From Mesonia mobilis DSM 19841 (GTDB taxonomy: Bacteria; Bacteroidota; Bacteroidia; Flavobacteriales; Flavobacteriaceae), in assembly GCF_000423405.1 (NCBI RefSeq), contig NZ_AUHX01000006.1:62001-126000 (forward strand): 64,000 nt of DNA. The letters are read 5' to 3'. Below the pieces are notes generated by a model. It saw nothing but the letters and a program-made list of their open reading frames with translations. It searched no databases and was not told the origin of the DNA. Position 1 is the first letter of the stretch. Each line of letters opens with the position of its first letter. The position numbers and the translations under genes were made by a program. Below are positions 18,416-64,000 of the stretch, piece after piece.

Positions 18416-19237
18416 ATGGAAAGTATTGTAAATTATTTTGAAAGTATAGATCCGGTTTTGGCCGCGCTTTATGCTACATTGTTTACTTGGGGATTAACCG
18501 CTTTAGGTGCTTCTTTGGTATTCTTTTTTAAGAAAATGAACCGAAAATTATTTGACGGTATGCTCGGTTTTACGGGCGGTGTGATGGTTGCAGCGAGTTT
18601 TTGGAGCTTGCTTGCGCCGGGTATCGAAATGAGTCCCGGAGAAGGTTTCGAGAAAACCATTCCTGCGGTAGTTGGTTTTGGTTTAGGAGCTTTGTTTATT
18701 TTTTCGCTTGATAAAATTTTACCGCATTTACACGTAAACTTTAAGATGAGTGAGAAAGAAGGTGTAAAAACTCCTTGGCATAAATCGGTATTGTTAACGT
18801 TAGCAATTACTTTGCATAATATTCCTGAAGGTTTGGCGATCGGTGTTTTGTTTGGTGGCGTTGCTGCCGGTTTTGAAGGAGCAAGTATTGGCGGAGCGGT
18901 TGCTTTAGCAATCGGAATCGGTATTCAGAATTTCCCGGAAGGTTTTGCGGTAGCGATGCCTTTACGCGGACAAGGTTTAAGCCGTTGGAAGAGTTTTAAT
19001 TTTGGACAACTTTCTGCTATTGTAGAGCCTGTAGCCGCGGTGATCGGGGCTTATGCCGTAATGACATTTGAACCAATTTTACCCTATGCTTTATGTTTTG
19101 CAGCGGGTGCAATGATTTTTGTCGTGGTAGAAGAAGTAGTGCCGGAGTCGCAACAAGATAAATACACCGATATTTCTACACTAGGTTTTATAGGTGGCTT
19201 TATGGTAATGATGATTCTAGATGTTGGATTAGGTTAA
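18416..19237 (+). CDS. ZIP-family divalent metal transporter
   Basis: This 273-aa membrane protein has about eight helices and the paired ZIP metal-site motifs HNIPEGLAIG and QNFPEGFAVAMPL, plus a late EEVVPES segment; this is the GufA/ZupT-like type. ZIP carriers bring Zn2+, Mn2+ or Fe2+ into the cytoplasm. The gene follows the MntR-type regulator with a 1-nt gap, so co-transcription is nearly certain and manganese is the first guess. The TonB receptor on the other side could supply the same metal across the outer membrane. Confidence 0.9.
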   Translation: MESIVNYFESIDPVLAALYATLFTWGLTALGASLVFFFKKMNRKLFDGMLGFTGGVMVAASFWSLLAPGIEMSPGEGFEKTIPAVVGFGLGALFIFSLDKILPHLHVNFKMSEKEGVKTPWHKSVLLTLAITLHNIPEGLAIGVLFGGVAAGFEGASIGGAVALAIGIGIQNFPEGFAVAMPLRGQGLSRWKSFNFGQLSAIVEPVAAVIGAYAVMTFEPILPYALCFAAGAMIFVVVEEVVPESQQDKYTDISTLGFIGGFMVMMILDVGLG

Positions 19238-19856: not shown

Positions 19857-21956
19857 TTATTTTAAAAGTTGAAAAGCTGCTAATGCTGCTACATAAGCTA
19901 TGCCAGACATCGCAACCAATTGCAAAGCCGGCCATTTCCAAGAGTTGGTTTCTCTTTTAACAATGGCAAGCGTGCTCATACATTGCATAGCAAAGGCATA
20001 AAAGAGCAATAAGCTAATTCCGCTGGCGAAGTTGAATAAAGGTCCGCCCAAAATTGGATTGGTTTCTGCCGCCATTCGATCTTTAATCGTTTTTTCTTCG
20101 TCGCTACCCACGCTATAAATCGTGGCCAACGTACCTACAAAAACCTCTCTTGCCGCAAAAGAACTCACAATGGCGATCCCAATTTTCCAATCGTAACCTA
20201 AAGGTCGAACGATAGGTTCGATACCTTTGCCCATCATCCCGATGTAGCTGTTTTCCAGCTTTACGGAAGCGACGTGATTTTCAAACTCTTCCGAAGATAA
20301 AGTTTCGCCATATTGTTCGCTCACAATTTCTTCAGCTCTATCAAATTCGTCGGTAGGACCATAGCTAGCTAACACCCAAAGGATGATAGAAATCGCTAAA
20401 ATTATTTTACCGGCACCAAAAACGAACGATTTGGTTTTTTCAACGACATTAATTCCTACGTTTTTAAATAGCGGGAGTTTATAATCGGGCATTTCGATCA
20501 CGAAATACGTCTTGCTTTTTATTTTTAAAATTTTGTTGAGTACCCAGGCTGAAAATACCGACATCCCAAAACCGAGTAAATACAGCAACATCAGTGTAAG
20601 TCCTTGTAAATTGAAAATACCTAAAACACGTTCATTGGGGATGACGAGCGCAATAATAATTAAGTAAACCGGAAGTCGCGCTGAACAAGTTGTAAACGGA
20701 ACCACGAGAATGGTAATTAAACGCTCTTTCCAATCTTCAATATTTCTGGTGGCCATTACAGCAGGAATCGCACAAGCAGTTCCTGAAACTAATGGAACGA
20801 CACTTTTACCACTTAAGCCGAAACGTCGCATTACACGATCCATTAAGAAAACAACTCGGCTCATATATCCACTTTCTTCTAATAAAGATATAAAGAGAAA
20901 TAAAAATGCGATCTGCGGAATAAAAATAACAATACCACCTAAACCGGGAATAATTCCTTCAGAAATGAGATTGGTAAAAACACCAGAAGGTAATGCATCT
21001 TTTGTCCATTCACCTAAAAAGGCAAAGGTAGAGTCGATCAAATCCATCGGGTAACTCGACCAGTCGTAAATGGCTTGAAAGATGAGTAATAAAATTCCGA
21101 AGAAAATAACATAACCCCAAACTTGGTGCGTAAGAATACGGTCTAAACGTGAGCGTAAATCTTTAGCGGCAGCAACATCTTTTTTAAAGGTTTCTTTTAA
21201 AACGCCATTGATAAATTGATAGCGAACAATGGTTTCTTTTTGCTGAAGCCGTTTAAGGTCGCTTTTCTTTTTAGTTTGAAAATCTGGAGTATTCTCTAAA
21301 CTGTTTCTATTTAAATTTCCAAAATTTACGTCTTGTGTGATCACTAACCAAAGTTTGTAAAGCGATTGGTTAGGGAAAGCTTTGCGAAGTCTATCGAAAT
21401 AATCGGGTGCGATCGAAGAAGCATTTACGCAAGGTTCTGTCGAAATTTGTCGGTGATTAATGATGAGTTCTTTTAACTCTTCGATCCCTGTTTTTTTACG
21501 AGCACTAACTAAAGCGATTTTCGTTTGTAATCGCTTTTCCATTAATTCGACATCTAGCGAAATCCCTTTACGCTCCATTCGATCTGCCATATTGATCACC
21601 AAAATCGTAGGAATGCCTAGGTCTTTTATTTGGGTAAATAGAAGTAAATTTCGTTTTAGATTTTCAACATCACTTACTACAACAGCAACATCTGGATAAT
21701 CTTTATCGTTTTTATTAAGCAATAACTCAATCACGATATTTTCATCGAGCGAAGATGCGTTTAGGCTGTAAGTTCCCGGCAAGTCTAAAATATGTGCTTT
21801 AAGTCCACGTGGGAGTTTACAAATACCTTCTTTTTTCTCGACGGTGATCCCAGGATAATTCCCTACTTGTTGGTTAAGACCGGTAAGGTGATTAAATACC
21901 GAAGTTTTTCCGGTATTGGGGTTTCCGATAAGGGCAACATTTATTTGTTTTGGCAT
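19857..21956 (-). CDS. feoB: Ferrous iron transport protein B
   Basis: This 699-aa protein has an N-terminal G domain with GNPNTGKTSVFNHLTG (G1, residues 9-24), the DLPGTYSL switch and NMADR (G4), then a membrane part with two Gate-type segments including SGTACAIPAVMATRNIEDW and FTTCSARLPVYL. FeoB is the main inner-membrane Fe2+ importer. Its ATG overlaps the feoA stop by one base. The gene is on the minus strand with FeoA before and the Cys-rich companion behind. It is complete. Confidence 0.96.
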   Translation of the reverse strand: MPKQINVALIGNPNTGKTSVFNHLTGLNQQVGNYPGITVEKKEGICKLPRGLKAHILDLPGTYSLNASSLDENIVIELLLNKNDKDYPDVAVVVSDVENLKRNLLLFTQIKDLGIPTILVINMADRMERKGISLDVELMEKRLQTKIALVSARKKTGIEELKELIINHRQISTEPCVNASSIAPDYFDRLRKAFPNQSLYKLWLVITQDVNFGNLNRNSLENTPDFQTKKKSDLKRLQQKETIVRYQFINGVLKETFKKDVAAAKDLRSRLDRILTHQVWGYVIFFGILLLIFQAIYDWSSYPMDLIDSTFAFLGEWTKDALPSGVFTNLISEGIIPGLGGIVIFIPQIAFLFLFISLLEESGYMSRVVFLMDRVMRRFGLSGKSVVPLVSGTACAIPAVMATRNIEDWKERLITILVVPFTTCSARLPVYLIIIALVIPNERVLGIFNLQGLTLMLLYLLGFGMSVFSAWVLNKILKIKSKTYFVIEMPDYKLPLFKNVGINVVEKTKSFVFGAGKIILAISIILWVLASYGPTDEFDRAEEIVSEQYGETLSSEEFENHVASVKLENSYIGMMGKGIEPIVRPLGYDWKIGIAIVSSFAAREVFVGTLATIYSVGSDEEKTIKDRMAAETNPILGGPLFNFASGISLLLFYAFAMQCMSTLAIVKRETNSWKWPALQLVAMSGIAYVAALAAFQLLK

Positions 21957-57740: not shown

Positions 57741-57798
57741 ATTTATTTGAAATAAATCTAAATAAATTTTAAATATCTAAACATGATCTATATTTTTG
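57741..57798 (+). promoter_or_regulatory. Control region of the siderophore-type receptor
   Basis: TATTTTTG at 57791-57798 is a -7 box. Upstream there is a 17-base palindrome (ATTTATTT-G-AAATAAAT, 57741-57757) and a repeat of AAATAAAT ten bases on (57760-57767). The stretch 57755-57766 reads AATCTAAATAAA, identical to a site before feoA. The sites cover the place of the -33 element, where a repressor would block polymerase. Confidence 0.45.
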
Positions 57799-57833
57799 CA
57801 AGCAATTTTAAATCAGTCTAAATTATAATTATT

Positions 57834-60212
57834 ATGAAAAAGGCTTTATGGGTTTGTTTATTATTGTTCTCAAACCTTATAATTGCGCAAGAGCTGGCAA
57901 CTATAAATGGAAAAGTGCTAGACGATCAAGATAATCCAATTCCGTTTGCAAGCGTATATGTTGGTGAGTTACAAAAAGGAAATGCAGCCAACGAAAACGG
58001 AGAATTTACCATAACCAACGTTCCTTACGGTAACTGGAATATTTTTGCAAGTGCGGTTGGTTTTAAAACCGTTTCTGTTGAGGTTAATATCAATTCAGCT
58101 CAAATTAACGGAGTTACCTTTCAATTAGAAGTAGATAGCGAATTAGATGCTGTTGAAGTTTTTGGAAATCGCTACAGCCATCCCGATAAAATTGAAGCCT
58201 TAACCAGACTACCATTAGAACCTTACGAACAAATACAAAGTATCTCTATTATTGGTGAAAAAGTAATTGAAGACCAGGGCGCGTTAACAATTTCTCAAGC
58301 GACGAAAAACGTACCGGGTGTTTATACTTTTGCTACTTATGGTAATAAACGAGAAAGTATGTCTTCTAGAGGTTTTAGAGGTATTCCTATCTTAAAAAAC
58401 GGAGTGCGTGTGCATTCAGATTTTAGAGGAGTAGGTATTTTAACCGATATGCAAGGAGTCGATAATATTCAGGTATTAAAAGGTTCAGCATCGATCACCC
58501 AAGGAGTGGCAACCGATTTAGGAAGTCCCGGAGGTGTAGTAAATATTGTGACTAAAACGCCAAAATATCAATTTGGAGGAAATGCTTCTTTGCGTGTAGG
58601 TAGTTTTGGGCAAGTAAGACCTACATTCGATGTTTACGGTCCGTTAGATAAAAAGAAAAATGTTGCTTTTAGATTAAACGGAGCTTTAGAAAGAGCCGAT
58701 AGCTATAGATCGATGATCTCTTCAGAAAGATTTTACATTAATCCATCATTGCAATGGCGTATCGACGATAAAACAAAAGTCACCTTAGAGATGGATCATT
58801 TTAACGATGCCAGAACTCCAGATGTTGGTACAGTTAATTTAGGTGAAAATAATGTAAACGCAATTTACGATTTACCTTATAACCAATATTTAGGATTTGA
58901 AAACGATCGCTCGATCACCGAAAACACTACATATTCTCTCCGTTTTGATCGTGCTTTAAACGATAAACTTACGTTGAAGGGAGCTTTTTATAAATCTGAA
59001 TTAGACCTAAACGATAAAGGTTCAAGCTTAGGAGGCGCAATAGATGTTGAAGGAGAAACTATGTATAACTTAAGACAAAGAGGTTATTCAAACTCTACAA
59101 GAAGCGACAACAATAGTGTTGTGCAATTTGATTTAATTGGAGATGAAGTGGCTACCGGAAGCATCAAACACACTTTTCAAGTAGGTTTTGATTATAGAAC
59201 TACAGATTTTTCTACCCGAAGTGAATCAATGAGTGTTGTCGATACCATCGATGTGTTTTCAGCAAACAGTCATAATTTACCTTCTATTTCTTTTGGGAAT
59301 GCAAGAGTAAGTTCAGGTAAATCTAAATCGATTGGTTTTGTTGCGCAAGATGTGATCTCGTTTACAGATTGGTTTAAAACCTTTTTAGGTGTTCGTTACA
59401 GTACCACCGAAACTATTTCCGGGGAAGAAAATAACAGAAGTGACGCTTTTAATCCGTTAGGAGGGATTATCGTTTCGCCAACAAAAAACATTAATGTATT
59501 TGCTTCTTACACTAATAGTGCTTACCCAAGAACTGCTGCTCGTTTAGGAGAAAACGGAGAAGAATTAGGAAATGAGCGTTACGACCAATTAGAAGCCGGT
59601 ATTAAAACCAACTGGTTAGATAACCGTTTACGTTTCAACCTAACTTTATATAAGATCAATAACAGAAATATTAACCTACCGGTTTACGACGAAACTTGGA
59701 CAAATATTATTTATTACCAACAAGGAGGTAACGACCAACGTCAAGGTGTTGAGGTAGAACTTACCGGAAGACCTTTAGAAAACTTAGAACTTATTGCCGG
59801 TTATGCATATATCGATGCAGATTATAAAGATCACACTTCGTTTGTTTATAATTCGGCGCCTTTAAATACACCAGAACATACATTTAATTTCTATGCAAAT
59901 TATATGTTTAGAGGCGACTTAGATGGTTTGTCTGTTGGTGCGGGAGCTTATTATACAGGAGAGCGACCAATCAATGACTGGTCTAAAGGCCCGGTAACTC
60001 ACGAAGGGATCGTACCTAACCAAAAACCTTTCGATGTAGAAGCTTACACGTTAGTCAACTTTCAAGCAGGTTATAAGTTCAATGAGCATTGGTCGGTTAG
60101 ATTTTTAATGAATAATGTGTTCGATGAAATTGGTTATAATGCTTACAGAACAAGATTTATTAATCAAACAGATCCTAGAAGTTATGCAGGAGTACTTAGT
60201 TATTCCTTCTAA
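57834..60212 (+). CDS. TonB-dependent siderophore-type receptor
   Basis: This 792-aa receptor has a signal peptide (1-19), a CarboxypepD-like domain (about 22-105), a plug with SSRGFRGIPILKNGVRVHSD and QGVATDLGSPGGVVNIVTK, and a barrel ending in SYAGVLSYSF with the C-terminal aromatic. The RGFRG and GSPGG forms are typical of ferric-siderophore receptors (FhuA/FpvA type). It starts a plus-strand locus with the ankyrin, DUF2271 and PepSY-reductase genes, though a terminator-like hairpin follows it. Confidence 0.9.
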   Translation: MKKALWVCLLLFSNLIIAQELATINGKVLDDQDNPIPFASVYVGELQKGNAANENGEFTITNVPYGNWNIFASAVGFKTVSVEVNINSAQINGVTFQLEVDSELDAVEVFGNRYSHPDKIEALTRLPLEPYEQIQSISIIGEKVIEDQGALTISQATKNVPGVYTFATYGNKRESMSSRGFRGIPILKNGVRVHSDFRGVGILTDMQGVDNIQVLKGSASITQGVATDLGSPGGVVNIVTKTPKYQFGGNASLRVGSFGQVRPTFDVYGPLDKKKNVAFRLNGALERADSYRSMISSERFYINPSLQWRIDDKTKVTLEMDHFNDARTPDVGTVNLGENNVNAIYDLPYNQYLGFENDRSITENTTYSLRFDRALNDKLTLKGAFYKSELDLNDKGSSLGGAIDVEGETMYNLRQRGYSNSTRSDNNSVVQFDLIGDEVATGSIKHTFQVGFDYRTTDFSTRSESMSVVDTIDVFSANSHNLPSISFGNARVSSGKSKSIGFVAQDVISFTDWFKTFLGVRYSTTETISGEENNRSDAFNPLGGIIVSPTKNINVFASYTNSAYPRTAARLGENGEELGNERYDQLEAGIKTNWLDNRLRFNLTLYKINNRNINLPVYDETWTNIIYYQQGGNDQRQGVEVELTGRPLENLELIAGYAYIDADYKDHTSFVYNSAPLNTPEHTFNFYANYMFRGDLDGLSVGAGAYYTGERPINDWSKGPVTHEGIVPNQKPFDVEAYTLVNFQAGYKFNEHWSVRFLMNNVFDEIGYNAYRTRFINQTDPRSYAGVLSYSF

Positions 60213-60349: not shown

Positions 60350-61849
60350 ATGAAAAAAATATTAATCATCACCGTTTTAGCATTAATGTCTTCAGGCATT
60401 TTTGCACAAGATAATGTGTTTCTTCAACGAGATTTTTGGTCTCAACAGCCTTCTGTTGAAGACGTAAAAGCAAAAATAAAAGCCGGTCACGATCCTAAAG
60501 AATTCAATCGGTCACATTTTGATGGTATTACGATCGCAATTTTAGCCGATGCTCCTCAAAAAGCGATAGAATATTTACTTGCTTTAGAGGGAGTAGATCT
60601 AGATACTCGCACTCACGATGCTAGAACTTATTTAATTTGGGCAGCCTACAAAGGGAACTTTCCGGTGGTGAAATACTTAGTAGATCAAAAAGCAGATGTA
60701 AATTTAAAAGGTTCTCACGGTTTTGGCGCCATTACTTTCGCTGCATTTGCCGGAGTAGAAGATCAGCGCATTTACGATTATCTAACCGCTAACGGACTTT
60801 CAATTCAGCAGGAAAATAAAGGTGGAGCAAATGCGATGTTGCTCATTATGCAAAAGCTGAAAAATTTAGAAATGATCGATTACTTTCAGCAAAAAGGACT
60901 CGATTTAAATAGCAAAGATCACGAAGGCAATAATGCATTTAGTTATGCAGCCAAAGGCGGAAACATTGAAGTAATGAACGCGCTTATCGAAAAAGGAGTT
61001 GATTACAAATCTAAAAATAATCTGGGCGGAAACGCCATTCTAGTGGCTAGTCAAGGTATTCGTGGGGCAACTCCTAAACTTGAAACCTTTAAGTTTTTAG
61101 TTGAAAAAGGGATCGATCCTAACGTGGTAAATAAAAACGGAGAAACACCATTAATTCTTTTAAGCGGAAGAAATCAAGATGCAACTTTAATTCAATATTT
61201 CTTAGAAAAAGGTGTCGATGCTAACCAAACGAATACTGAAGGGAATAATGCATTAATCAATGCAGCCGCAGGAAATTCGTTAGAAATTGTAAAGATTTTA
61301 GAAGAAGAAACTAAAAACATCAACCATAAGAATAACGAAGGGCAAACCGCATTAATGTTGGCCGTTAAAGGAAATTCAGAGGATGTGGTTTCGTATTTGA
61401 TCGAGAACGCAGCAAAAGTAAATGTAGCCGATAAAGACGGAAATAACCTTGTTTATTACTGGGCAAATTCAGCTAAGAGAGGTCGCGATGGTAAAGTTAC
61501 TGCGCCAAGCGAAGAGAAATTATCAGTTCTAGAAGCTCAAGGCTTCCCTTTCACCAAGCCACAACCTAACGGAAATACTTTGTTACACGTTGCGGTTCAA
61601 AACAACGATTTAGCTTTGGTAAAAAAAGCAATCGAATGGAATGTTGCTGTTAACGCTAAAAATAATGAAGGTAACACCGCTTTATTATTAGCAGCTTTAA
61701 ACTCAAAGAATACCGAGATTTTAAAGTATTTATTAAAGAATGGAGCCGACAAATCGATTACCACAGATTTTGAAGAAAGTGCTTACGATTTAGCAAATGA
61801 AAACGAAGTGTTAACCAATAATGGCGAATCACTAGAGTTTTTAAAATAA
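60350..61849 (+). CDS. Periplasmic ankyrin-repeat protein
   Basis: This 499-aa protein has a signal peptide (about 1-20, ending IFAQ) and about a dozen ankyrin repeats with the core forms TRTHDARTYLIWAAYKGNFP, NKNGETPLILLSGRN and NNEGNTALLLAALN. I start at the ATG at 60350 (MKKILII), not the earlier ATG at 60326, because only the later one gives a normal signal peptide. It is exported, and ankyrin arrays mediate protein binding; the partner may be the receptor or the DUF2271/reductase pair. The DUF2271 gene follows 59 nt later. Confidence 0.9.
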   Translation: MKKILIITVLALMSSGIFAQDNVFLQRDFWSQQPSVEDVKAKIKAGHDPKEFNRSHFDGITIAILADAPQKAIEYLLALEGVDLDTRTHDARTYLIWAAYKGNFPVVKYLVDQKADVNLKGSHGFGAITFAAFAGVEDQRIYDYLTANGLSIQQENKGGANAMLLIMQKLKNLEMIDYFQQKGLDLNSKDHEGNNAFSYAAKGGNIEVMNALIEKGVDYKSKNNLGGNAILVASQGIRGATPKLETFKFLVEKGIDPNVVNKNGETPLILLSGRNQDATLIQYFLEKGVDANQTNTEGNNALINAAAGNSLEIVKILEEETKNINHKNNEGQTALMLAVKGNSEDVVSYLIENAAKVNVADKDGNNLVYYWANSAKRGRDGKVTAPSEEKLSVLEAQGFPFTKPQPNGNTLLHVAVQNNDLALVKKAIEWNVAVNAKNNEGNTALLLAALNSKNTEILKYLLKNGADKSITTDFEESAYDLANENEVLTNNGESLEFLK

Positions 61850-61908: not shown

Positions 61909-62415
61909 ATGAAAAAGTATATTTTAACGAGTGTAAGTCTTTGCTTAACGGCTTTTATGTTGTTGGCATTTACCGCTCCTCAAAACGAAAATAAAGCCAA
62001 AGCAACAACCGTAAAATGTTTGTTGCAGCTCAAAAACTATTCTGGTAAAAAGCCTTACGTGGTGGTTTCTATTGTAGATGAAAATGAAAAATACCAGCAA
62101 ACCTTGTATATGCAGGGACAAGATGACGAATGGTATAACACTTTAAAAGAATGGTGGGCGCAATTAGGCAAAGACGGTAAAGAAAATATCGATGCCATAA
62201 GTGGTGCGACAATTAATCCGGGAGCAAGATCGATCATCGCTTTTGAAATTCCTGAAGATAAAATCGGCAAGAATTACAAACTGCGTTTTGAAAGCGCGGT
62301 AGAAGATCAAGATTACCATAAAAAAGACTTAGAAGTAGCGCTTACCAAAGAAAATTTAAAAGGAAAATTCGACGGTTCGGGGTACATTCGTTACGTGAGA
62401 TTAATTGCGAATTAA
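61909..62415 (+). CDS. DUF2271 protein with a predicted covalent flavin site
   Basis: This 168-aa exported protein (signal peptide about 1-22) is of the DUF2271 family, with VVVSIVDENEKYQQTLYMQG and a C-terminal SGYIRYVRLI. The segment NIDAISGATINPG holds D95-A-I-S-G-A-T101, which matches the Dxx(S/T)GA(T/S) flavinylation motif where ApbE attaches FMN through the final threonine. It would be a periplasmic flavin electron carrier. It is 59 nt after the ankyrin gene and 12 nt before the PepSY-reductase gene. No apbE is in the window; one is expected just downstream. Confidence 0.85.
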   Translation: MKKYILTSVSLCLTAFMLLAFTAPQNENKAKATTVKCLLQLKNYSGKKPYVVVSIVDENEKYQQTLYMQGQDDEWYNTLKEWWAQLGKDGKENIDAISGATINPGARSIIAFEIPEDKIGKNYKLRFESAVEDQDYHKKDLEVALTKENLKGKFDGSGYIRYVRLIAN

Positions 62416-62427
62416 AATCATTTTTAA

Positions 62428-64000
62428 ATGATTATTTCAGTTTGGAGATACAGTCATTTAGCGTTGGCCGTATCTTCATTTTTGTTTGTGCTAACTGCTT
62501 CCTTAACTGGAATCGTCTTAGCGTTTGAGCCTATTCAGCAAGAAATAGAAACGCAAACTTTCCCTGTGGAAGAAACCTCTACGGCAACTCTAATTTCAAA
62601 CTTAAAAGAAAATTACCTAGAAGTTTTTGGAGTAAAAGTAGATGCTTATCAGCGCGTTTCGGTGTCGGTGCTTACCGAAGATGGCGAGATGGCAGAGTTT
62701 TATGTGAATCCGCAAACGGGAGAAAAAGTAGGAGAATTAGCGCAAGAATCTTCTGTTTTTCAGTTTGCTCGTAGTTTGCACCGCTCCTTATTTTTAAAAA
62801 CTACCGGAAGGTTTTTTGTTGGCCTTACTTCCTTTTTACTCTTTTTGATCAGTGCCAGCGGGCTTATACTTCTATTCAAACGCCAGCAAGGTTTTCGAAA
62901 GCTATTTTCAAAAATTATAAAAGAAAACTTCTTTCAATACGGGCACGTTTATTTAGGAAGATTATTTCTTGTTCCGATCATCATTATCAGTATTTCCGGA
63001 GTTTATTTGTCGCTTTTTCAATTCAACGTTTTAAAACATCCCGTTTTTAATGCTGAATTTGATACTGAAAAAATTAGCGCAACTCCACAACTCGAAATTG
63101 CTGAAATTCCCATTTTTAAAAACACTCCGGTTGCTGAAGTAAAAAGTATTGAGTTTCCTTTTTCAACAGAAGTGAACGATTATTATGTGTTACAACTTCA
63201 AGAAGGAAGCTTTGCGGTGAACCAATTTACTGGAGAAATTTTAGATGAAAGTCTGCTTCCTGCAAGTGAAAAACTTTTTAATTACAGCTATAATTTGCAC
63301 ACCGGTGAAGGCAATCTCATTTGGTCGTTCGTGTTGTTATTGTCTTGTGTGAGTTTATTGTTTTTTATCTATTCAGGATTTAAGATCACTTTCAAAAGAA
63401 AAGCGGCTAAAATTAAAAATAAGTTCAAGCTTAAAGATTGTTCGCATCTTATTTTAGTAGGATCAGAAACAGGAAGCACGTTGCAGTTTGCGGTTTGGTT
63501 TCAGCAAGAACTTCAGCAAAAAGGAATAAAAGCTTTTGTGGCACAAATGAATGAATTTGAAGTTCATCAAAACCTTCAGCAACTCATCGTTTTTACCGCA
63601 ACTTATGGCGTTGGAGAACCACCAACAAACGCTACAAAATTTGAAGCAAAGTTGAAAGAAACTCATTTCAAAAACCCGATTCAATATAGTGTGGTTGGTT
63701 TTGGCTCGTTTGCTTATCCCGATTTTTGCAAATTTGCATACACTACAGAACAGTTGTTAGATGAAAAACAAAATGCCAATTGCTTTTTGTCGCTACACAC
63801 GATCAATAACAAATCGACAGAATCGTTTAACCGATGGTTAGCGCAATGGGGTCGATTGAGCGAGATAAATCTTCCTAAGTTTGAAGGTGAAATTGAAACT
63901 GAAAAAAGAAAAAAAGTCGCTTATCAAGTCGTAAGAAAAACAGCATTAATCTCTAACCATCAGAGTTTTTTAGTTGAATTAAAACCGGTAAAGAAACAAA
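62428..64000 (+). CDS. PepSY-membrane/flavodoxin reductase (partial, 3' end outside)
   Basis: The ATG at 62428 opens a frame without stop for 524 codons to the window edge. It is a PepSY_TM protein: four membrane helices (about 10-35, 125-150, 175-195, 295-320), each near a histidine (H10, H118, H173, H291) that could bind haem. A flavodoxin domain starts near residue 336 (LILVGSETGSTLQ) with FTATYGVGEPPTNATKF, and from about 485 a FAD/NADPH oxidoreductase part begins. It should carry electrons from NADPH through flavin to the periplasm, most likely to the DUF2271 protein. The remainder and the probable apbE lie beyond 64000. Confidence 0.88.
   Translation, partial: MIISVWRYSHLALAVSSFLFVLTASLTGIVLAFEPIQQEIETQTFPVEETSTATLISNLKENYLEVFGVKVDAYQRVSVSVLTEDGEMAEFYVNPQTGEKVGELAQESSVFQFARSLHRSLFLKTTGRFFVGLTSFLLFLISASGLILLFKRQQGFRKLFSKIIKENFFQYGHVYLGRLFLVPIIIISISGVYLSLFQFNVLKHPVFNAEFDTEKISATPQLEIAEIPIFKNTPVAEVKSIEFPFSTEVNDYYVLQLQEGSFAVNQFTGEILDESLLPASEKLFNYSYNLHTGEGNLIWSFVLLLSCVSLLFFIYSGFKITFKRKAAKIKNKFKLKDCSHLILVGSETGSTLQFAVWFQQELQQKGIKAFVAQMNEFEVHQNLQQLIVFTATYGVGEPPTNATKFEAKLKETHFKNPIQYSVVGFGSFAYPDFCKFAYTTEQLLDEKQNANCFLSLHTINNKSTESFNRWLAQWGRLSEINLPKFEGEIETEKRKKVAYQVVRKTALISNHQSFLVELKPVKKQ

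Follow-up and report, generated by a model that had tools for sequence, protein, structure and literature searches.

A stretch of 64,000 nucleotides from Mesonia mobilis DSM 19841 (hereafter the window; positions 62001-126000 of contig C5 in a 3.2 Mb draft genome with the code G000) contains four genes in the same direction (57834-64623), which encode a TonB receptor, an exported ankyrin protein, a DUF2271 protein and a PepSY-flavodoxin-FNR reductase. The evidence leans toward reading them as an operon for iron acquisition under Fur control, whose back end releases iron by reduction and in which the ankyrin protein acts as the docking partner of the DUF2271 protein. A role of the operon in iron acquisition is very likely, and an electron path from NADPH through FAD, FMN, heme and an FMN on DUF2271 to Fe(III) is probable, while the docking role of the ankyrin protein in the periplasm is proposed tentatively and might well prove wrong. 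The periplasmic release of iron from its carriers is poorly understood in Bacteroidota, which comprise marine, soil and gut bacteria, and the co-inherited ankyrin protein represents a concrete missing component to test.

Organization and conservation of the gene cluster

The first gene (57834-60212; plus strand, as for all four genes) encodes a TonB-dependent siderophore receptor of 792 amino acids (aa) with a CarbopepD_reg_2-Plug-barrel architecture according to Pfam and TIGR01783. It is followed after 137 bases by the gene of a 499-aa exported ankyrin-repeat protein (60350-61849; Ank_2, E 1.8e-73), after a further 59 bases by that of a 168-aa DUF2271 protein (61909-62415; PF10029, E 2.3e-36, 125 bits vs a cut-off of 27.3), a predicted covalent FMN carrier, and after 12 bases by the gene of a PepSY_TM-flavodoxin-FNR (diflavin) reductase, the 5' part of which lies in the window (62428-64000) and which extends in the contig as far as 64623, giving 731 aa. 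The 137 bases that separate receptor and ankyrin hold no gene, and hence none for a DUF4374/XusB lipoprotein. The initial annotation of the window had described these four genes as standing in one direction, an order borne out by the open reading frames (ORFs) and Pfam; the span that it gave, 61909-64000, covers the last two genes only, with the receptor and ankyrin genes outside it and the reductase cut by the window end.

The linkage of ankyrin, DUF2271 and reductase (hereafter the triad) was followed in 120 genomes of the family Flavobacteriaceae, in 296 genomes of the phylum and in GTDB contigs; the counts over genomes and loci ignore shared descent. Within the family sample (thresholds of E <=1e-40 for ankyrin and E <=1e-30 for the reductase), DUF2271 was found in 47 genomes (45 above the cut-off), ankyrin in 42 and the reductase in 44, including G084, which matches with a 473-aa form only. 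Each of the 43 ankyrin matches, in 42 of the 120 genomes, immediately precedes DUF2271 on the same strand. Both partners were found within 1 kb for 41 of the 49 DUF2271 places. In the phylum sample, ankyrin and the long reductase coincide completely: the 20 of 296 genomes that have one also have the other (9 genera in either tally), and DUF2271 is present in all 20. There, 19 out of 21 ankyrin matches adjoin DUF2271; in G367, two tandem ankyrin copies stand at a contig end and DUF2271 begins another contig. DUF2271 without ankyrin was found in G264 and G303, in frames of 516 and 507 aa.

The GTDB scan yielded at least 593 pattern matches, at least 491 of them encoding a relative (tblastn, E 1e-3), with other ankyrins possibly among them, and the best 80 of these at least 491 loci were kept. 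They include Flavobacteriaceae, Saprospiraceae, Flexithrix, Pedobacter, Dyadobacter, Maribellus and Capnocytophaga. Among these best 80, DUF2271 stands next to ankyrin in every locus and the reductase comes next in 77 (75 by a spacing test, and also L107 and L117, in which the genes overlap or touch and the reductase is the next one listed); the remaining three are two Capnocytophaga loci and one contig end. Both Capnocytophaga loci (L122 and L145) carry the ankyrin-DUF2271 pair alone, and their genomes encode a PepSY reductase (731 or 734 aa) at another site. This marks ankyrin-DUF2271 as the tightest link. Across all ankyrin loci, 120 of 123 were counted (L095, L112 and L126 were left out because the ORF caller missed the ankyrin frame that tblastn finds), and these include near-copies, giving 114 distinct ankyrin rows. 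DUF2271 is the next gene in 119 of these 120 loci, and in the exception, L055, it is present but was missed by the ORF caller. On a Spirosoma plasmid (L165), the triad occurs together with a siderophore receptor and an FMN transferase (apbE) gene.

The DUF2271 protein, the reductase and the ankyrin protein

A DUF2271 protein has been shown to be a substrate of its cognate ApbE, flavinylated at the Thr of the motif (PMC8238504). The window protein carries the flavinylation motif DAISGAT named in the initial annotation at residues 95-101 (62191-62211, plus strand), with FMN predicted on T101 (codon 62209-62211). The strict form Dxx[ST]GA[ST] occupies the same column in 38 of 45 aligned DUF2271 relatives, and about 0.0007 matches to it are expected by chance per protein of this size. 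The AlphaFold2 model of the protein has a mean pLDDT of 82.0, falling below 50 in the motif loop (95-101), and Foldseek found no PDB match to the model at E <=0.001, the best being a C2 domain at E 0.01; the fold was given no weight in the interpretation. A Lys-Cys pair, K36-C37, is invariant in the relatives, and the mature window protein has no Cys other than C37. In one family genome (G095, locus L076), a DUF2271-match protein of 507 aa in a 522-aa frame, close in size to the frames of G264 and G303, shows weak ApbE similarity and is followed by a short PepSY-like gene; it resembles the fusion of ApbE and DUF2271 described in 2021.

The reductase matches PepSY_TM (PF03929; E 4.8e-35 within the window, 1e-34 for the full protein), Flavodoxin_1 and, in its full length, NAD_binding_1, with four hydrophobic segments before residue 323. 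His10, His118, His173 and His291 are invariant in all 42 aligned reductases and, by analogy with FoxB, are the putative heme ligands. The same 42 proteins share the FAD motif RxYS (R543-x-Y545-S546), G605, S660, Y667 and the C-terminal Tyr, while R631 is found in 39 and R661 in 26 of them. The PDB relatives of the soluble half are cytochrome P450 reductase and the sulfite reductase flavoprotein, a likeness that makes NADPH the likely electron donor. When residues 1-331 were compared with the PDB by phmmer, FoxB was not among the matches up to E 10. The window genome contains two additional PepSY_TM matches, one of them a 393-aa frame.

The ankyrin protein begins with the signal peptide MKKILIITVLALMSSGIFAQ, as read by eye, and is modeled by AlphaFold2 with a mean pLDDT of 94.9 as a solenoid of 14 helix pairs (by manual grouping of helices). 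The alignments behind the structure models were made up of rows picked by hand, 57 out of 75 in one case and 60 out of 80 in the other. The best 50 PDB matches of the ankyrin model are designed and animal ankyrin-repeat proteins and are uninformative on function. Conservation is highest in the third hairpin, T88-H89-D90-x-R92-x-Y94-x-x-W97, and also high in the C-terminal cap (472-488); a partner site may lie in these regions. Another exported bacterial ankyrin protein, AnkB of Pseudomonas aeruginosa, is linked to the catalase KatB, a redox enzyme; going by its description, it is set apart from the window protein by its smaller size and different partner. The sister of the window ankyrin is the Salegentibacter R32 protein, with which it shares 78% identity, while it is only 39% identical to that of a genome of its own genus (G048, L064), a divergence that hints at separate acquisition or at paralogous versions of the operon.

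Probable iron control

Fur-box-like sites were scored against a consensus symmetrised from published Riemerella boxes. Upstream of the receptor, the palindrome ATTTGAAATAAATCTAAAT (57745-57763, plus strand) differs by two mismatches from ATTTAGANTNANTCTAAAT and represents the best match, 15 of 18 positions to the symmetrised consensus, equaled in none of 50 shuffles; a second palindrome with two mismatches (57805-57823, plus strand) ends 10 bases 5' of the receptor start. The whole window holds five such sites vs 2.09 expected, with as many in 8 of 100 shuffles, which is unconvincing alone, and a strict mismatch-free pattern gave 0 matches across the genome, which is uninformative. The comparison across loci is much clearer. 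Promoters were counted for 111 of the 120 loci (105 distinct promoters), and sites of at least 14/18 occur in 95 of these 111 operon promoters vs 31 of 488 control intergenics of the same loci; 79 of the 111 are equaled or beaten by at most one of 50 shuffles of their own sequence. After trimming to 155 bases, the mean control length, the sites are still present in 93 of 111 promoters (88 of the 105 distinct ones).

A cluster with similar gene names and order is known in Riemerella anatipestifer, where B739_0173-0177 are annotated as TonB receptor CirA, hypothetical protein, Ankyrin, predicted periplasmic protein and 'nitric oxide synthase', and are up in low iron with table values of 3.31, 3.64, 2.41, 3.06 and 1.05 (PMC5429918). 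Fur represses B739_0173 and binds its promoter (PMC7976709). Together, the Fur-like sites and the published Riemerella data suggest that the window operon is under iron and Fur control.

Receptors and exchanged uptake genes

The window receptor was predicted to be a siderophore receptor in the initial annotation, and it does pass the TIGR01783 cut-off (272.6 bits vs 223.5); in the PDB it is related to CntO/FoxA and to the ferripyoverdine, pyochelin and ferrichrome receptors. A reading based on siderophores alone is too narrow, however, since the receptor varies among related loci. The comparison of neighborhoods that the initial annotation had called for shows that the triad recurs while its siderophore receptor partner is swapped. 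The more frequent neighbors of the triad are HmuY-type heme-uptake genes, and siderophore-like receptors accompany it less often. A HmuY-type gene was found in 68 of the 120 loci with a called ankyrin frame. Pfam confirmed HmuY in 7 of 7 long forms and in the one short form tested; an additional, earlier-tested member of the long group matched by its secretion tail only. Five receptors beside HmuY match the hemin and B12 receptor models about equally and all below the cut-off, so the label 'heme-type' rests on HmuY. A DUF6607 gene lies directly upstream of ankyrin in 68 of 120 loci, including most heme-type ones (e.g. L040:8968-9876); the search of the openly licensed literature found no paper on DUF6607.

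In 18 of the 120 loci, a family of lipoproteins of about 450 aa is encoded between MxcH-like receptors and ankyrin (e.g. L096:8293-9744). For all four receptors tested beside them, MxcH, a siderophore receptor, is the best match (357-390 bits, cut-off 925). The lipoproteins had been called XusB-like, a name that was dropped: of seven scanned, only that of L107 matches DUF4374 (27.7 bits, cut-off 25), and a profile of nine of them finds no DUF4374 structure; most of the members tested lack any Pfam match. Loss of the name left the likelihood of the iron role, the electron path and ankyrin docking unchanged, since the receptors themselves still point to siderophores. The family is possibly a new kind of siderophore-binding surface lipoprotein. 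True DUF4374 (XusB-type) proteins are found in L085, L093, L100 and L107, of which L085 is the sister locus of the window cluster.

A FastTree phylogeny of ankyrin (120 rows; 75 heme-type, 20 siderophore-type by their lipoproteins, 3 with a receptor only and 22 unlabeled) requires at least four changes between heme-type and siderophore-type labels, so the back end seems to have been reused with different receptors. Siderophores may therefore be only one of the substrates of the triad, and heme is possibly another. A back end common to heme-type and siderophore-type genes predicts that a single knockout affects both iron sources. That the triad replaces HmuS/CobN is no more than an idea: a CobN-like protein was found in 9 of 120 family genomes, ankyrin is present in 5 of these 9, and no clear exclusion emerges.

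Proposed mechanism and alternative explanations

In the proposed mechanism, the TonB receptor would deliver a ferric chelate to the periplasm. In the cytoplasmic half of the reductase, electrons from NADPH would pass to FAD in the FNR domain and to the flavodoxin FMN. The next carriers would be two hemes b, held in the membrane by the four invariant His of the PepSY part, and the electrons would move from there to the FMN on T101 of the exported DUF2271 protein, loaded by ApbE in trans. The flavinylated DUF2271 protein would then reduce the ferric chelate (or heme), and the freed Fe(II) may enter via FeoB. The ankyrin solenoid would be the fixed partner of DUF2271, docking or positioning it in the periplasm. 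The domains of this electron path, put forward in the initial annotation, are all in place as PepSY_TM, the four invariant His and a diflavin module of the NADPH type. A broader version, which we regard as speculative and rather doubtful, makes the ankyrin protein the docking scaffold of a general Bacteroidota machine for reductive iron release, with front ends swapped and the back end fixed, in which it would hold flavinylated DUF2271 between the NADPH-heme reductase and the delivered ferric siderophore or heme. If true, it would mean a periplasmic ankyrin scaffold for electron transfer as well as flavin-driven removal of iron from periplasmic heme.

Loading of the flavin would depend on ApbE, and an ApbE was found in all 120 family genomes. 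The window genome has two apbE genes. A DUF3570 gene and a thioredoxin-like one accompany the first, and an nqrF-like gene (nqrF named by eye) adjoins the second; the products of both apbE genes look exported by N-termini read by eye, which show Sec and lipoprotein signals. The absence of apbE from the genome, named at the outset as a finding that would contradict the proposed electron-transfer system, is thus not what was observed.

Several points weigh against the operon reading. Neither apbE copy adjoins the cluster: the initial annotation had pointed to the sequence past 64000 as the place to look, but none was found in the 12 kb read there, where the next gene is of the MBL/rhodanese type (named by eye). 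Adjacency across family genomes was assessed from the locus stretches, of which only 2 out of 120 (L058 and L120) contain apbE, as detected with a weak profile built from three ApbE sequences. As a consequence, flavinylation would need one of the two ApbE proteins to act in trans. The strict motif is broken in 7 of the 45 DUF2271 relatives (SAKTGAS, DAIAGET, DAIVGET twice, DAITGET, DAISGET and DAISGPT), five of which have GET for GAT. Six of the 49 family DUF2271 places go without ankyrin (G020, the second copy of G001, G095, G084, G081 and G117); the matches of G081 and G117 fall below the Pfam cut-off, and among the ankyrin-less places that of L071 is near HmuY/DUF6607-type genes and that of L079 directly precedes a short 473-aa PepSY gene. 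The Fur-box consensus comes from a genus other than the host, the Riemerella cluster is equated with that of the window by names and order rather than by sequence, and the case for the role of the ankyrin protein is indirect. Finally, DUF2271 could be bypassed, with the reductase itself acting on the chelate as proposed for FoxB.

Three alternatives were weighed against this background. According to the first, which we consider rather unlikely, heme is the main substrate of the triad throughout the family, HmuR/HmuY-delivered heme is reduced or stripped of its iron by the flavin system, and the window receptor is a swapped front end. The frequency of HmuY-type genes and of upstream DUF6607 (68 of 120 loci each), the HmuY forms confirmed by Pfam and the rarity of CobN/HmuS-like proteins (only 9 of 120 family genomes, none in the window genome) agree with it. 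So does the Capnocytophaga ankyrin-DUF2271 pair: the genes upstream of it in L122 are ferrochelatase and flavodoxin (Flavodoxin_5) by Pfam, the frames of L145 look alike, and the ferrochelatase neighbor is a possible heme link of the pair. However, the window receptor is of the siderophore type (TIGR01783), other loci have MxcH-like receptors (4 of 4 tested, below the cut-off) or DUF4374 lipoproteins, and the HmuY-linked receptors, also below the cut-off, fit hemin no better than B12. Moreover, CobN is compatible with ankyrin (5 of 42 ankyrin genomes have both), and the gene neighborhood may merely reflect common iron control.

The second alternative, that a FoxB-like reductase alone reduces ferric siderophores while DUF2271 and ankyrin perform another periplasmic task such as protection, folding or delivery of another redox enzyme, is improbable. 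FoxB-type PepSY proteins are indeed described as ferri-siderophore reductases in PMC13001220, where DUF2271 is not mentioned; the window genome has the two additional PepSY_TM matches noted above, and the reductase and DUF2271 stand apart in Capnocytophaga and in G020. Against this are the presence of DUF2271 in every one of the 20 phylum genomes with the long reductase and the gap of 12 bases between the two genes in the window. The third, that ankyrin is a functionally irrelevant chance neighbor, is strongly disfavored and extremely improbable: 6 of the 49 places lack the protein, but all 43 matches adjoin DUF2271 in the same order, it shares its 20 of 296 genomes with the reductase, DUF2271 is next in 119 of 120 loci, and its tip (T88-H89-D90-x-R92) and C-cap are conserved.

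Relation to known systems

The general PepSY/DUF2271/ApbE iron-reduction cluster is already published (Meheust et al. 2021; PMC8238504). That study counted 1077 PepSY-like genes that include a NAD-binding domain, found a TonB gene in 231 clusters, and proposed iron reduction, including that of siderophore iron, for PepSY/DUF2271/ApbE clusters. Its clusters likewise combine a PepSY-like protein with a DUF2271 protein carrying [S/T]GA[S/T]. The window cluster differs in that apbE, often inside the published clusters, is absent beside it, and that DUF4198, present in 1500 of them, was not seen there.

XusABC of Bacteroides also comprises a TonB transporter and a PepSY inner-membrane reductase (PMC13142918). 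Its lipoprotein XusB (DUF4374) has a counterpart in the sister locus L085 but not between the window receptor and ankyrin. In the FoxB and HiuABC systems of Pseudomonas and Caulobacter, a Fur-regulated TonB receptor is combined with a PepSY reductase with heme-binding His, and the substrates are hydroxamate xenosiderophores (PMC13001220). HiuABC has HiuC instead of the two periplasmic partners, and the word 'ankyrin', like 'DUF2271', occurs nowhere in the main text of that paper. Riemerella B739_0173-0177 resembles the window cluster by gene names and order alone, and its ankyrin gene appears only as a table row in the available part of PMC5429918. This row was the only instance of the ankyrin partner found in the openly licensed literature: 'ankyrin' is absent from the main text of PMC8238504, PMC11334425, PMC13001220, PMC13142918 and PMC10434189, and its mentions in PMC9123166 and PMC6801697 are unrelated. 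As far as this literature shows, the ankyrin partner is new.

Neighboring genes

The convergent MBL/rhodanese-type gene, next past the reductase, is located at L003:8696-10111, which corresponds to window positions 64696-66111; a rhodanese-like protein in Riemerella carries a Fur box. Elsewhere in the window, on the minus strand, is feoB (19857-21956), encoding a ferrous-iron importer and identified by a FeoB_C match above the cut-off at C5:82436-82594. A ZIP-like transporter gene, named by eye, is located near feoB at 18416-19237.

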